Of a stretch of DNA of 64,000 nucleotides, positions 27,030 through 34,413 are shown in pieces (the first letter of the stretch is position 1; each line of letters starts with the position of its first letter). Both the position numbers and the translations under genes were made by a program. Under the pieces are notes generated by a model. It searched no databases. It was not told the origin of the DNA and saw only the letters and a list, made by a program, of their open reading frames with translations. The DNA comes from Archaeoglobaceae archaeon (GTDB lineage: Archaea; Halobacteriota; Archaeoglobi; Archaeoglobales; Archaeoglobaceae): positions 1-64,000 of the forward strand of contig JALWDS010000034.1 in the NCBI GenBank assembly GCA_027036775.1, given 5' to 3'.

Positions 27030-27736
27030 GGTGCGAGTGCGGAAACCCCCTTCCAAGTCCCACAGCGTATTGCCTCTACTGCGGTAGGAGAAACGCTATA
27101 TCTTGCGGGCTCTACATCTCTTCAAAGGTTTACCTCGTTTTCATAGGTAAAGTCATCGAAACCCTATCTTTCAAGCTTTACGAAGAGGAAGAATCTGTTA
27201 GAAATCTGTTTGAAGTTGTTGCGGAGAGGATACATGAGAGGAGGGTTGAAGAGGTTTACGTTTGCGGTGAGAACGAGAAAAGCATGAGTTTCGGCTTTGA
27301 GAATTTAAAGAGGTGTTCCCTAAGTGATTTAAAAGTATACCTAACGCAACCGATGGAATTTGAGGAGTTCGTTTCCAAGTTGAAAGATTTCGTCACTAAG
27401 AAGGAGGAACTTAAAAAGGTTGAAATTCCTCCAGAAGAGAAGATTCAAGGCTCTCACTCAACCGTGATTGGAGGTAGGCAGGGTAGGGAGTTTTTGCACA
27501 GGGTTGCGTGCTGTGAGTTCGTTAAGAAGATAGTTCCCGGTGTTATAACTGGAGGAGCTTCGTCGTTGGGTGGCGGGGTTAGGTTCAAGGTAACGAGGTG
27601 CGACGAGAAGGGGAATCTGAGGGCTTTGCTGATAAACGGTTCGAGCGTTCAGGAGATTTACATAATAACGACCGCAAAAAACAAAGAACAGGGTGAAATA
27701 ATTTTGAAGATGCTCAGGAGCGTTTCTTCCTCTTGA
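27026..27736 (+). CDS. Zinc-ribbon protein with DUF2103-like C-terminus
   Basis: A 236-residue protein. A zinc ribbon opens it (CECGNPLPSPTAYCLYCG). The C-terminal ~90 residues, from IQGSHSTVIGGRQGREFL to SVQEIYIITTAKNKEQGEI, resemble the DUF2103 predicted metal-binding family. The middle region is unassigned. It overlaps the ACT gene by four bases, suggesting co-translation. Its 3' end overlaps the convergent aMBF1 gene by 23 bases. Function unknown; the DUF2103 match is from memory of the family pattern and is moderate. Confidence 0.6.
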   Translation: MRCECGNPLPSPTAYCLYCGRRNAISCGLYISSKVYLVFIGKVIETLSFKLYEEEESVRNLFEVVAERIHERRVEEVYVCGENEKSMSFGFENLKRCSLSDLKVYLTQPMEFEEFVSKLKDFVTKKEELKKVEIPPEEKIQGSHSTVIGGRQGREFLHRVACCEFVKKIVPGVITGGASSLGGGVRFKVTRCDEKGNLRALLINGSSVQEIYIITTAKNKEQGEIILKMLRSVSSS

Positions 27737-28166
27737 TGACCACAACGTCTCCCAAGGTTGGCGTTAAACTCTTCGGGCTTTCAACCTTAACATCTTCAAC
27801 TCTCTCCCTCAGTTTCACACCAAATACCCTCTCAAGTTTCTCTAAAACCTCCTTTTCTGGTGTTATCTCTCTGTTTTCAAGCTTCCTTATCAAAGTGGCC
27901 TTCTCCTGTATCCTTTTAGCCAACTCCTCCTGAGTCCAACCCCTCCTTTCCCTCTCCCTCCTTATGATTTCGTGGAAGTTCTCAACGACCTCGTAATCCT
28001 CAACTATCGGTTTCGGCCTTGCAACCTTCTTAACGACCTTAACCTTAACGTTCTTAATCTCGACACCCAAATCCTTACACCTGTCGCAGACCGTGAGTTC
28101 GCTTCCCTCCACCACCACCCTGTGACCTCTACCCAAAATCCTACCACCGCATATTTCGCAATACAT
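27714..28166 (-). CDS. mbf1: Archaeal multiprotein bridging factor aMBF1
   Basis: About 150 residues. The N-terminal zinc ribbon MYCEICGGRILG...CDRCKDLG is typical of archaeal MBF1. The Cro-type helix-turn-helix (HEIIRRERERRGWTQEELAKRIQEKATLIRKLENRE) is the conserved MBF1 core. Archaeal MBF1 has been linked to ribosome binding and translation. The frame extends to GTG 28181, but the standard N-terminus MYCEICGG at ATG 28166 follows a GGGGATAGG site. It is divergent from pan. Confidence 0.93.
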   Translation of the reverse strand: MYCEICGGRILGRGHRVVVEGSELTVCDRCKDLGVEIKNVKVKVVKKVARPKPIVEDYEVVENFHEIIRRERERRGWTQEELAKRIQEKATLIRKLENREITPEKEVLEKLERVFGVKLRERVEDVKVESPKSLTPTLGDVVVIKRKKRS

Positions 28167-28248
28167 GCCTATCCCCATCACTCTCGACTTTGCAGTTAAA
28201 AATTTTGAGGATTAACTACTTATACTTCTTCGACGGATTTAATTTATA

Positions 28249-29469
28249 ATGAGCGAAGTGGATTACGACTACCTCCTTGAGAGGTTGAAGAGGTTGGAAG
28301 AGGAATTTGAAAGGCTCAAGAGAATTGAAGAGGAGTATTACAAGCTTAAGGAGCACTACCGCAGGTTGGAAGACGAAAAGAGGTTTATAGAGTCGGAGAG
28401 GTTGAGATACGAGAGAGAAATTAGAAGATTGCGGAGCGAAATCGAAAGGTTGAGGAGTCCTCCCCTACTGATCGGCACGATTTCTGACGTTTTGAGCGAC
28501 GGTAGGGTTATAGTTAAGAGTTCAACTGGTCCGAAGTTCCTCGTTCACGTTTCCCAGTTCGTCAATCCCAAGGATTTAAAGCCCGGTGCGAGGGTTGCAA
28601 TGAATCAGCAGACATTGGCGGTTGTGAGCGTTCTACCTCCGTCCAAAGATCCGACGGTTTACGCCTTTGAGGTTGAAGAGAGACCCAACGTCACCTACGA
28701 CGACATAGGTGGTTTGGACAGACAGATTGAGGAGATCAGAGAGGCGATAGAGCTACCTCTCCTAAAGCCGGAGCTGTTTGAAGAGGTTGGAATAGAACCT
28801 CCTAAAGGGGTTTTACTCTACGGTCCACCGGGAACTGGTAAAACTCTCTTGGCCAAGGCGGTTGCGAACAAAACGAAGGCCACATTCATAAGGGTCGTCG
28901 GTAGCGAGTTCGTTCAGAAATACATCGGTGAGGGTGCGAGGTTGGTGAGGGAGGTATTTGAACTTGCGAGGGAGAAGTCACCTTCGATAATATTCATAGA
29001 CGAGTTGGATGCGATAGCTGCGAGGAGGACTTCAAGCGATACGAGCGGGGATAGGGAGGTTCAGAGAACTCTGATGCAACTATTGGCTGAGATGGACGGA
29101 TTCGATCCGAGAGGAGACGTTAAGATCATTGGAGCCACAAACAGGATAGACATACTCGATCCCGCAATACTCAGACCGGGGAGGTTCGACAGGATCATTG
29201 AAGTTCCCCTACCGAGCTTCGAAGGTAGAATTCAGATATTCAAGATTCACACGAGGAGGATGAAACTCGAAAACGTTGACTTCAACGAACTCGCAAGGTT
29301 GACAGAAGGGGCGAGCGGTGCGGACATAAAGGCCATATGCACCGAAGCAGGTATGTTCGCGATAAGAGAGGAGAGGACGGTTGTTACAATGGACGACTTC
29401 CTCAGGGCGATTGAGAAGGTTCTGAGGAAGGATATGGGATACAGGGAGAAGGGAGTTATGTTCGTTTGA
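28249..29469 (+). CDS. pan: Proteasome-activating nucleotidase PAN
   Basis: PAN is the hexameric AAA ATPase that unfolds proteins for the 20S proteasome. An N-terminal coiled coil (about residues 5-75) precedes the OB domain. The AAA module has Walker A GPPGTGKT, Walker [12 protein letters not shown], the sensor ATNR and the arginine finger region RPGRFD. The C-terminus ends in MFV, a variant of the HbYX docking motif with phenylalanine in place of tyrosine. A TATA-like ACTTATAC near 28215-28222 is about 28 bases before ATG 28249, so the message is probably leaderless. Its stop abuts the stop of the convergent ribbon-helix-helix gene. Confidence 0.96.
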
Positions 29470-29961
29470 TCACCAATCTTCGATCAATTTTTTGATCTTC
29501 TCCACCTCGTCTTCCTCAACCTTCAGCTTCGGCCTGTAACCGAGTTTGTCTCCGTAGAGCTCAACGACCATCTTTGCGGACAGCTTTGCAATCTTTATCA
29601 AATCCTCATCGATTTTCAGGCTTTCCCTTCTCTTTTCCCTCCTTCTATCTGTGTAGTAGGAGCAGAACAGGCATTTGTATATGCTGAGGGGCTCGGGTGT
29701 CTTCTCCTCGAAAACGTCGTCCAAGCTTTCGAGAAGGCAATACCTTCCGTCGCTGTATTTGCAGTTCTTCATTCTCTCCGTTCCTATCTTCTTAGCGTAG
29801 GCTACGAGTTCCGAAATTTCGACTGGTTTGGCCTTGTATCTCTTCAGAAAATACCATTCGAGTAGGGCCAAAATAAATTGAGATGGAGATACCCCTTTCT
29901 CCTCGCACTTCTCCAAAAGCTTCTCCTCAATATCTGGTGGGATGTCTATCGTCACCCTCAT
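29470..29961 (-). CDS. Ribbon-helix-helix protein with cysteine cluster, paired with actin-like ATPase
   Basis: A 163-residue protein. The first 45 residues (MRVTIDIPPDIEEKLLEKCE...SPSQFILALLEWYF) fit a ribbon-helix-helix DNA-binding fold. A middle segment holds four cysteines (NCKYSDGRYC and YKCLFCSYY) that could bind zinc or an iron-sulfur cluster. The C-terminus is charged and helical. It overlaps the upstream actin-like ATPase gene by four bases, so the two are co-translated. In plasmid type II partition systems an actin (ParM) is followed by an RHH adaptor (ParR); this pair has the same order. Function here is inference. Confidence 0.7.
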   Translation of the reverse strand: MRVTIDIPPDIEEKLLEKCEEKGVSPSQFILALLEWYFLKRYKAKPVEISELVAYAKKIGTERMKNCKYSDGRYCLLESLDDVFEEKTPEPLSIYKCLFCSYYTDRRREKRRESLKIDEDLIKIAKLSAKMVVELYGDKLGYRPKLKVEEDEVEKIKKLIEDW

Positions 29962-30941
29962 TTCTTCTTACCCTTTTTCGCATCCTTCTCTTCCTTTTCC
30001 TCTTTTTCTTCTTTAACCTCCTCGCTTAATCCCTTCAACTTCTTCGCGAGCATGTAAAATCCCTTGGCGTTTGCGGTTATTGGATCGTCGGGCTTGACAA
30101 CCTTTCCTATGTCCTCGAACTCCCTTTGGAAGAGCTCGTAAACCATGGGTAATAAGCTACCTCCACCCGTTATCACCAAGTTCTCCACTATGCTCGTTGA
30201 GAGTCCTTCGAGTAGCATCTTAACCCTGCTCGCAACCCTATCCACCCACCCCTTCACTATCTCCTCGTAACTTTGAATGACGTCTTCCCTCTTGACGACT
30301 ATCCTCCTCCCACCCCTTATCCTTCCCACCTCTCCGTTTTCGAGTAAAAGCTTTGCCATCTCCTCCGGTGTTATGCTTATGCCATACTCGTTTCTCACGA
30401 AGAGTTCGAGGTTGTTGTATATGTCGTCTATACCCACGAGCATTGTGTCTCCCTTCAGATACTCCATGTCGAAAAGAACAACTATATCCGTAGTCCCGAA
30501 TCCTATGTCAACGCAAACGCCCGTTTTCATACCCATGTAGATCAAACTTCCGACGGGTTGAGGTAGAAGAATCACCTCGCAATTCAATGCGTTCTTTAAG
30601 CTGTTCAACACGTTTTCCCTCTCCTTCTTCGAAGATTTTACGGGCAATCCCGTTGCCACAACCTTTGCATTTTTATCCAGCAGGTTTAGGGCGAACTTCG
30701 CAATCTCTATGTAAGATTGATGCATTATCCTACCCTCGTGCAAGGGTCTTAGGACTTCGACGTTCTCCATGGTTTGAGATACTATCATCGCCTCTTCACC
30801 TATGTAAACCTTCTTCGATCCTCCCTTCAGGCTCCAATCCTTCTCTTCACCGTAAACGACCAAGCTGGGAAAAACGACTACCCTCTCGCCGTCGTTAGTG
30901 GCTTTAGTTAGGTTCGTCCCTATGTCGAGTCCGACTATCAT
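29958..30941 (-). CDS. Actin-like ATPase (ParM/Ta0583-like)
   Basis: A 327-residue actin/Hsp70-superfamily ATPase. Phosphate-1 motif MIVGLDIGTNLTKA opens it. Phosphate-2 VCVDIGFGTTDIVVLFD lies near residue 155, and the adenosine motif LVITGGGSLLPMVYEL near 270. The size and layout match archaeal Ta0583 and plasmid ParM rather than MreB or crenactin. The C-terminus is a repetitive charged tail (EEKEEKEEKDAKKGKKK) that may be disordered. The frame runs much further upstream, but that extension is antisense to pyrC. ATG 30941 with GGGGGAC directly upstream gives the proper N-terminus. It overlaps the RHH gene and is divergent from pyrC. Confidence 0.85.
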   Translation of the reverse strand: MIVGLDIGTNLTKATNDGERVVVFPSLVVYGEEKDWSLKGGSKKVYIGEEAMIVSQTMENVEVLRPLHEGRIMHQSYIEIAKFALNLLDKNAKVVATGLPVKSSKKERENVLNSLKNALNCEVILLPQPVGSLIYMGMKTGVCVDIGFGTTDIVVLFDMEYLKGDTMLVGIDDIYNNLELFVRNEYGISITPEEMAKLLLENGEVGRIRGGRRIVVKREDVIQSYEEIVKGWVDRVASRVKMLLEGLSTSIVENLVITGGGSLLPMVYELFQREFEDIGKVVKPDDPITANAKGFYMLAKKLKGLSEEVKEEKEEKEEKDAKKGKKK

Positions 30942-31013
30942 GTCCCCCAATCGATCGAGTTGCCTAAAAATGTTCCGAAAAACATAACTTTTTCTATTGC
31001 AACTGATGTTAAA

Positions 31014-32177: not shown

Positions 32178-33115
32178 GGGTCGTTCAGGTGGAGGTTTCA
32201 ACGAGATGCCAGCTGAGGTGCGTGATGTGTCCCCACACGATTTTCAGCGGAGAGTGGATAAACGAGGATATGGACTTCGAAACGTTTAAGAGGATACCTT
32301 TCGATAGGTTCGATTTGGCACACCTGCAGGGATGGGGAGAACCACTCTTAAACCCCCGAATTGAGGAGATGATAGACCTCGCCAAGAGAAATTGCAGAGT
32401 TGGTTTAACCACAAACGGACTGCTCATAGACGAGGTGAACGTCGGTAAACTTGATTACCTTGCGGTATCCATTGCGAGTGCGAGGGAGGATAGGCACAGA
32501 GAGATAAGAAAGACGAGTTTAGAGGAGATACTTGCAAAGGTTGAGAACGTTTCTTCAAAAGTCGACGTGACGTTCGTTTTCATGATGATGAAGGACACAT
32601 ATGAGGAGTTGCCGAACGTCGTCGAACTGGCTAAGAAGGTTGGGGCTAAGAGCGTGATAGCAAACAACCTCGACTACGTTCCTTCAAAGGAGCTTGAAGA
32701 TCAAGCGGTATTCTTGCGGAAAGTAGATTACAAACCAATTGAACTTGCAAAGGTTAAGGCCAAGGAGTTGGGAATAAATCTGATAGTCAAAAGCGTTGAG
32801 ATGGGGGAAGTCTTGGTCTGTGCGGAAAATCCTATAGACAATGTTCTAATAACGCACAACGGCCTAATGACCCCCTGCGTTTACCTACACCTCCCTACTA
32901 AGTCTGAGAAAATTAAGAGGGTCTTCATGGGCAGGGAGTTGGAGGTTGAGAAGGTTTACTTCGGAAGGTTTGACGATGAAGAGAGTTGGAGGATGTATAG
33001 GGACTTTGGAAGTGTTTTTGAGAGAAGAAGGTCTATCCTATGGTCACTCTTTCCATCGAATATCCCACCCCTCCCAGACTGCTGTAAAACGTGTTACAAG
33101 GCTTACGGGGTTTAA
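32174..33115 (+). CDS. Radical SAM protein with C-terminal cysteine cluster (SPASM-like)
   Basis: A 313-residue radical SAM enzyme. The SAM cluster motif STRCQLRCVMC (C12, C16, C19) is at the N-terminus. HLQGWGEPLLNP and GLTTNGLLID are typical core segments. The C-terminus adds cysteines in MTPCVYLHLP and LPDCCKTCYKAYG, suggesting a SPASM-like auxiliary cluster. Such proteins often modify peptides or mature tungsten/molybdenum enzymes; no substrate gene is adjacent. It overlaps pyrC by four bases. Its stop shares TTAA with the convergent RuBisCO gene. Confidence 0.82.
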   Translation: MRVVQVEVSTRCQLRCVMCPHTIFSGEWINEDMDFETFKRIPFDRFDLAHLQGWGEPLLNPRIEEMIDLAKRNCRVGLTTNGLLIDEVNVGKLDYLAVSIASAREDRHREIRKTSLEEILAKVENVSSKVDVTFVFMMMKDTYEELPNVVELAKKVGAKSVIANNLDYVPSKELEDQAVFLRKVDYKPIELAKVKAKELGINLIVKSVEMGEVLVCAENPIDNVLITHNGLMTPCVYLHLPTKSEKIKRVFMGRELEVEKVYFGRFDDEESWRMYRDFGSVFERRRSILWSLFPSNIPPLPDCCKTCYKAYGV

Positions 33116-34413
33116 ATCGGTTTTAAGTATCCCCACTTTTCCAAAGCCCTCTTCAACTCCCTGTGCTCCTTCGCATACTCATCCAAGGGAACTCCAAGCT
33201 TTATGGCATCTAAAGCTTGTCTTACCGCTCTTGCCCCAGCCATTGCACCGTCTGGATGTCCCATTACGCCTCCTCCAACCTGCAAAACTATCTCGGTTCC
33301 CAAGGCTTCTATAACACCGCCCAAGTTTCCCGGGTGAAGCCCTCCAGATGAGACTGGCATGGCCGGTTTTATGTTGTGGAAGTTCTGTTCGAAGTGGAAG
33401 TCGTTTGGCCTGTAAACATCCTCCCTTAAAACTCTGGCGTATTCGACAACCTCTTTCCCACCTTCAAGCTTTCCATAGCCAGCGGTTCCGACGTGTAACT
33501 GATCGACTCCGGTTACTCTGTAAAGCTTGGCCAAAACGAACATGGAAATTCCGTGATACCTGTTCCTCGTAAATGCTGAGTGCATAGCCCTATGTGCGTG
33601 AATTGCGAGGTTGTAATCGTTTGCAAGCTCCCTCATGTGGTTCAAAACGCTCCATCCAGCTATAACCACGTCTATCATCACGTATGGGTTGTCGTATTCA
33701 GCAACCAACTTCAACCTCTTCTCCATCTCTTTAACATCTGCGGTTATATTTGCAAACCAAGCCTTTTTCTCTCCAGTCTCTTTCTCAGCTTTATCGATGG
33801 CCTTCATTATTGCCTTTGCCCTCTCCTCAAACCTGCAAAAGTCCTGATTGGTTAGGTTTTCGTCGTCCTTAACGTAGTCCATTCCTCCAACGAGGAGTTC
33901 GTATGCAAGCTTTTCTATTTCTTTTGGTGTGTATCCGACTTTCGGCTTCGGAACCGTTCCGACTATGGGTCTGTCGTAAACTTCGAAGATATTTCTGACT
34001 CCCTTTCCGTAGAGCGGGCCTTTGAAATCCTTTAAGAAATCCTTTGGCAGGTAAACGTCTTCAAGCCTCAAACCTTCAACCCTTCTCATTCCGAAGACGT
34101 TTCCAGCAATTGAGGCCATTAGACAAGTTAAACTACCTCTCTCGAAAAGTTCCAAAGGATACGCTATCTTCACGAGGTGGCTGTCATCCAAATCGACGAA
34201 TTCGTATGCTTTTGCATTCAACCTTTCAACCCTCTCAAAGTCGCACCATTCGTATAGGGTGGTCCAAGTTCCAGTCGAGCTTTCAGAAGCTATGGCTCCA
34301 GCGACCTCTTTAATATCGAATCCTTCGGCTGGTTTTATCCTATACAGAGCGATGATTTCATCTTTGGGTTTGTAGCCCTCGTCAACGTATTTCAAATACG
34401 CTTCCTCCGTCAT
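33112..34413 (-). CDS. rbcL: Form III ribulose-1,5-bisphosphate carboxylase large subunit
   Basis: A 433-residue archaeal RuBisCO. The catalytic set is intact: VGTVPKPKVGY with the substrate lysine, the carbamylated-lysine motif GMDYVKDDEN, the HRAMH histidine, and SSGGLHPG near the end. No small-subunit gene is present, as expected for form III. Form III enzymes act in AMP salvage, using ribulose bisphosphate made from nucleosides; the partner genes for AMP phosphorylase and ribose-1,5-bisphosphate isomerase are not in the window. It lies eight bases after a beta-propeller gene and is probably co-transcribed with it and the YeiH-like transporter. Confidence 0.95.
   Translation of the reverse strand: MTEEAYLKYVDEGYKPKDEIIALYRIKPAEGFDIKEVAGAIASESSTGTWTTLYEWCDFERVERLNAKAYEFVDLDDSHLVKIAYPLELFERGSLTCLMASIAGNVFGMRRVEGLRLEDVYLPKDFLKDFKGPLYGKGVRNIFEVYDRPIVGTVPKPKVGYTPKEIEKLAYELLVGGMDYVKDDENLTNQDFCRFEERAKAIMKAIDKAEKETGEKKAWFANITADVKEMEKRLKLVAEYDNPYVMIDVVIAGWSVLNHMRELANDYNLAIHAHRAMHSAFTRNRYHGISMFVLAKLYRVTGVDQLHVGTAGYGKLEGGKEVVEYARVLREDVYRPNDFHFEQNFHNIKPAMPVSSGGLHPGNLGGVIEALGTEIVLQVGGGVMGHPDGAMAGARAVRQALDAIKLGVPLDEYAKEHRELKRALEKWGYLKPI

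Follow-up and report, generated by a model that had tools for sequence, protein, structure and literature searches.

To our knowledge, the way in which chromosomes are segregated and placed in euryarchaea is largely unknown. DNA-moving pairs of an actin and an adaptor occur on bacterial plasmids, in prophages and, as was found recently, on a few bacterial chromosomes. The locus described here raises the question of whether an archaeal chromosome carries such a pair: in a stretch of 64,000 nucleotides (the window), taken from a 110-kb contig of a 1.53-Mb assembly of an Archaeoglobaceae archaeon, an actin-like gene is followed by the gene of a small protein with a ribbon-helix-helix (RHH) domain. 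Our searches of the literature found no paper describing this archaeal actin-RHH pair, and the review passages that we consulted do not mention an Archaeoglobus actin. We read the pair as a vertically inherited chromosomal actin/adaptor of the Archaeoglobaceae, and we give about even odds (a probability near 0.5) to the proposal that it is linked to DNA and works like ParM and ParR.

An operon between housekeeping genes

The two genes overlap by four nucleotides (ATGA), with the actin gene first, and an earlier reading made from the sequence alone (the sequence-only reading) had placed both genes and their overlap correctly (Table 1). The identical overlap is found in 16 of 24 linked loci and the pair recurs across the family at ~50-80% identity, two reasons why the operon is not a product of chance. 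By sequence reading, its neighbours encode a proteasome-activating ATPase (28249-29469) and a dihydroorotase (from 31014). A TATA-like promoter ~25-30 nt before the actin ATG is common to the upstream regions when these are compared by eye, and the same comparison of loci revealed no other shared element that could be a conserved operator. In many genera the operon continues into genes for a divergent luciferase-like protein and a class I/II aminotransferase. This extension is seen for example at L139:8503-10424, where the luciferase-like protein scores below the Pfam cut-off; at another locus (L138), the luciferase-like gene remains beside the RHH gene although the actin gene has relocated. 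Elsewhere in the window, an ORF on the minus strand (33112-34413) is presumably an archaeal RuBisCO large subunit, and a protein with a zinc ribbon and a helix-turn-helix (27714-28181) is one that we take to resemble MBF1.

Table 1. Features of the actin-RHH operon, in window coordinates.
Feature	Position	Strand	Remarks
Actin-like ATPase, 327 aa, ATG start	29958..30941	-	nucleotide motifs DIGTN, DIGFGTTD, TGGGSLLP intact
Actin C-terminal tail, residues ~306-327	29961..30026	-	disorder predicted; acidic, then Lys-rich cluster KKGKKK at end
72-nt intergenic region, actin to divergent dihydroorotase gene	30942..31013	.	TATA-like promoter, repeats absent
RHH partner protein, 163 aa, ATG start	29470..29961	-	
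RHH domain, residues 1-43 (strand 2-7, helices 9-22 and 26-43)	29833..29961	-	
Four-cysteine module, residues 67-100	29662..29763	-	C67-x7-C75-x21-C97-x2-C100, probable metal site
C-terminal helix of partner, residues 155-163	29473..29499	-	KIKKLIEDW-COOH; proposed actin-binding motif

The actin is of the Alp type

The sequence-only reading had assigned the first protein to a ParM/Ta0583 type of actin. The actin fold stands: an AlphaFold model (pLDDT 85, pTM 0.82) retrieves actin-fold PDB entries in the hundreds, and the nucleotide motifs are invariant in an alignment of the Archaeoglobaceae family, so that, judged by fold and motifs, the protein would bind ATP and form filaments. The ParM label, in contrast, proved too specific because among solved structures MreB ranks above ParM (MreB comes first with a TM of ~0.74, Ta0583 reaches 0.69 and a ParM 0.63). 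Sequence profiles set the protein among MreB, ParM and Alp proteins, with a PHROG partition family as the best match (5.2e-28) and Pfam matches to MreB_Mbl (E 9.6e-20), ALP_N (5.6e-14) and the Ta0583-type MreB-like_C (2e-7). The MreB_Mbl cut-off is passed (71 bits vs 27), but other actins and long ORFs of the DnaK type match this model too; the MreB-specific models of NCBIfam are far from reached (71 vs 293 bits and 62 vs 366 bits). A phylum-wide search with MreB_Mbl was of no help in placing the actin, as it returned mostly long ORFs of ~600-690 codons that we read as DnaK/HSP70. In a small tree, which carries a long-branch warning, a split (98/96) joins the protein to a plasmid ParM/StbA and separates it from MreB and from salactin. 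Given this mixture, with solved structures ranking MreB first and the tree on the ParM/StbA side, we call the actin Alp-type and nothing narrower. Ta0583 from Thermoplasma is also a euryarchaeal actin of ParM/MreB type, and its Pfam family PF21522 and structure 2fsj match the window actin, but the two proteins share ~23% identity.

Could the actin simply be an MreB-like membrane cytoskeleton that gives the cell its form, the RHH protein being incidental? Its fold matches best to MreB, and carrying an actin has been found to correlate with elongated shape in archaea (PMC7613921). We nevertheless consider this role very unlikely, since the actin begins directly at its first strand without an N-terminal membrane helix, no mreC or mreD was recognised among the neighbours in the loci read, and the protein is strictly co-inherited with its RHH partner (see below). 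The other end of the actin has a character of its own: it is Lys-rich, and the net charge of the last 10 residues lies between +2 and +7 in 25 of 26 homologues.

The partner joins an RHH domain to a cysteine module and a terminal helix

From its N-terminus, the partner is laid out as an RHH domain, a helix, the four-cysteine module, a second conserved helix, a linker and the C-terminal helix. The RHH assignment is weak by sequence profiles (Pfam RHH_1 E 0.026, below the cut-off; PHROG Arc-like repressor 4.5e-5), and it was upheld for residues 1-43 by a structure search, which returned CopG at the top (probability 0.96, TM 0.76 over 41 residues) and next NikR, Arc, AtaR, MatP and VapB. The overall model is of modest confidence (pLDDT 74, pTM 0.41), which is expected because a dimeric domain was modelled as a monomer. 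RHH domains nearly always bind DNA. In the strand presumed to read DNA, position 2 is conserved as R/K and position 4 is mostly T/S, while position 6, the third outward residue of this strand, is acidic (D/E) in all; the charge of the domain is near neutral.

The four additional cysteines to which the sequence-only reading had drawn attention (C67, C75, C97 and C100) are identical in 33/33 homologues. They form a probable metal site, for zinc as the default guess or else for an iron-sulfur cluster; that the module senses redox state is speculation. Radical_SAM Pfam matches appear in 10 of the 33 family members (best E 0.005), and we rejected this identity, the matches being probably due to cysteine spacing.

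After a poorly conserved linker of 9-42 aa, the protein closes with the motif V-[KR]-[KR]-L-L-x(1,2)-W, in which W is the final residue in 33/33 homologues. A terminal helix that stays conserved while the linker before it varies freely is typical of a peptide that docks on another protein, and this combination in an RHH protein is what is new here. It has two precedents in layout, not in descent: the C-terminal 17-residue peptide of ParR binds ParM (PMC9178275), and the last 17 residues of arcadin-2 bind a hydrophobic groove of crenactin, a Trp being important for this (PMC5173319). By analogy, the Trp-helix would dock directly on the actin, the best supported step of the mechanism and one that is common to two readings of the partner, as a DNA adaptor or as a regulator of the arcadin-2 kind. 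Arcadin-2 depolymerises crenactin filaments (PMC5173319), and in bacteria the Cb-cParR protein, itself an RHH adaptor, does the same to its own filament (PMC12270681). A partner of the arcadin-2 kind would use its RHH domain for dimerisation only and would be a metal-stabilised actin modulator (a depolymeriser, sequesterer or nucleator) acting through the Trp-helix with no link to DNA, which would suit the invariant acid, the near-neutral domain and the absence of repeat sites (see below). On the other hand, R/K2 and T/S4 retain the usual pattern of DNA contacts, and RHH domains that leave DNA alone are rare; we regard such a purely actin-directed partner as possible but rather unlikely.

Both genes are retained, also when separated

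Co-conservation across the order had been proposed as a check, and the pair passes it: of 55 Archaeoglobaceae genomes, both genes are present in 38 and absent from 12, leaving three with the RHH gene only and two with the actin only (Fisher test p 8e-8 before correcting for kinship, related genomes not being independent). The sequence-only reading had staked itself beforehand on an RHH fold and on co-conservation, and both were found. Broken contigs, drafts that are incomplete or decay into a pseudogene can account for all five exceptions. The RHH-only genomes are G023, with a contig that begins within this gene, G032, a draft and the least certain of the five, and G048, which is 99% complete; the actin-only genomes (G043 and G044) are both incomplete drafts. 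More telling than the Fisher test is that both genes are retained after separation in six genomes, two from one genus (G009 and G011) and four from another (G039-G042). In G009 and G011 the left neighbours stay with the actin and the right neighbour stays with the RHH gene, as in the linked state, and the break therefore fell exactly between the two genes. This retention of the two as a pair, even after they have moved apart, suggests an unstudied actin machine, one that may handle DNA.

Most genera of the family carry the pair, in single copy and among core genes. Outside the Archaeoglobaceae, 394 genomes of the phylum yielded no member of either family, and when the GTDB genome collection was scanned with a pattern, an approach that reaches close relatives only, matches came from Archaeoglobales only, among them Archaeoglobus, Geoglobus and Ferroglobus. 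One candidate RHH relative from outside the family (G182, E 1.7e-4) was rejected, as it shares the RHH domain only and has neither the cysteines nor the C-terminal Trp; no actin was recognised within the 11 kb read around it. That a PHROG partition family is the top profile match to the actin could hint at the remnant of a partition module from an integrated plasmid or provirus. This origin is extremely improbable given the distribution and the core-gene neighbours: phages, plasmids and viral contigs, when searched, held only distant MreB/ParM matches to the actin and none to the RHH protein, with no actin relative above ~27% identity in the phage and plasmid records and no viral contig encoding the RHH protein. 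The housekeeping neighbours bear out the earlier claim that the operon is chromosomal.

One of the exceptional genomes amounts to a natural knock-out. In G048 (L134:5780-6460), a decayed actin pseudogene (tblastn 1.8e-5 vs 0.19 at best in shuffles) immediately precedes an RHH gene that is intact but encodes a protein ending in LLDL instead of LLDW, the only place where the invariant terminal W is lost. Decay of the actin and of the RHH Trp is thus coupled in this genome, which is one suggestive case only because the RHH protein differs at other positions too. Such a loss of the Trp where the actin has decayed, like the linker and the invariant Trp themselves, goes unexplained if the RHH protein is a metal- or redox-responsive transcription factor of the actin operon, and of the downstream luciferase-like and aminotransferase genes, that makes no contact with actin. 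RHH proteins are commonly autorepressors, and a regulator of this sort would be in keeping with the invariant cysteines, the NikR match and the length of the operon in many genomes; retention of both genes after their separation fits it less well, as do upstream regions that share a TATA-like promoter and no operator. We judge it unlikely.

Is it a partition system?

ParMRC, the type II partition system of plasmids such as R1, likewise has a gene for an actin ATPase and, after it, one for a small RHH protein, and ParR resembles the partner described here in that its flexible tail closes with a short helix. Two elements of ParMRC are present in the window, an actin-fold ATPase and an adjacent RHH gene after it. 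Another, centromere-like repeats, for which the sequence-only reading had proposed to look, is not: iterons were found neither near the window operon nor in 44 related loci, where the search yielded short low-scoring arrays only, most of them inside the Lys/Glu-rich actin tail. Nor was a position near the origin seen in eight complete genomes, in which ~120-580 kb separate the actin gene from the main orc1/cdc6 gene. Because of these results, together with the invariant acid and the want of a common upstream element beyond the TATA-like promoter, a strict ParMRC is not established, and DNA binding by the partner is no more than plausible. Further differences from ParMRC are the archaeal chromosome, the four-cysteine module of the adaptor and an actin model that is nearer to MreB. 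Another parallel is the chromosomal cParMR of Firmicutes (Desulfitobacterium and Clostridium), again an actin with a predicted RHH adaptor (PMC12270681); here, however, the system is archaeal, one pair descends vertically through a whole family, parC was not found and the cysteine module is added. Crenactin and arcadin-2 share with our pair an archaeal actin whose neighbouring gene encodes a protein with a Trp-containing helix at its C-terminus, but the partner here is an RHH/cysteine protein and the best matches of the actin are MreB and Alp-type proteins, not crenactin.

Weighing these comparisons, we read the pair as working like ParMR or like crenactin/arcadin-2. The adaptor pair is favoured by gene order and overlap, co-occurrence, genes that are split but retained, the RHH fold, the Trp-helix, G048 and the tree; against it stand the missing iterons, the MreB-like model, the invariant acid, the near-neutral RHH domain, the distance from orc1/cdc6 and the fact that G048 is a single case. 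We hypothesize that the RHH protein, stabilised by its four-cysteine metal site, dimerises via the N-terminal domain and probably binds DNA there, while the flexible linker, as layout and conservation suggest, would let the C-terminal Trp-helix enter a groove of the ATP-bound, filament-forming actin. The filament end would thereby be tied to DNA, or filament growth would be tuned by the DNA-bound partner, and the likely cargo would be all or part of the chromosome rather than a plasmid. A bolder version, in which the filament positions or moves the archaeal chromosome and the metal site sets the hold of the adaptor on DNA or on actin, appears doubtful to us; if true, a chromosomal spindle of the ParMR kind, gated by metal, would exist beyond bacteria and plasmids. 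Vertically kept in hyperthermophilic archaea, the pair offers a small and stable two-protein system for an actin, its partner, the grip between them and a possible link to DNA.

Salactin, an actin homologue of Methanotecta, has a proposed role in DNA partition (PMC10746226), and the actin/adaptor pair, if our main reading is true, would add to it in suggesting that actins of archaea act on DNA, and would name a candidate adaptor. The window actin is not itself a salactin (Pfam PF25229, 12 bits vs a cut-off of 27.1), true salactins being other genes. The window genome has none; among 59 genomes of the class, 15 carry a full-strength salactin as a second actin, about a quarter of the Archaeoglobi genomes (L140-L143 and 11 further places). 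At two of these places (L142 and L143), an ORF for a MinD/ParA-like ATPase (FPSGKGGVGKT) lies near the salactin gene.
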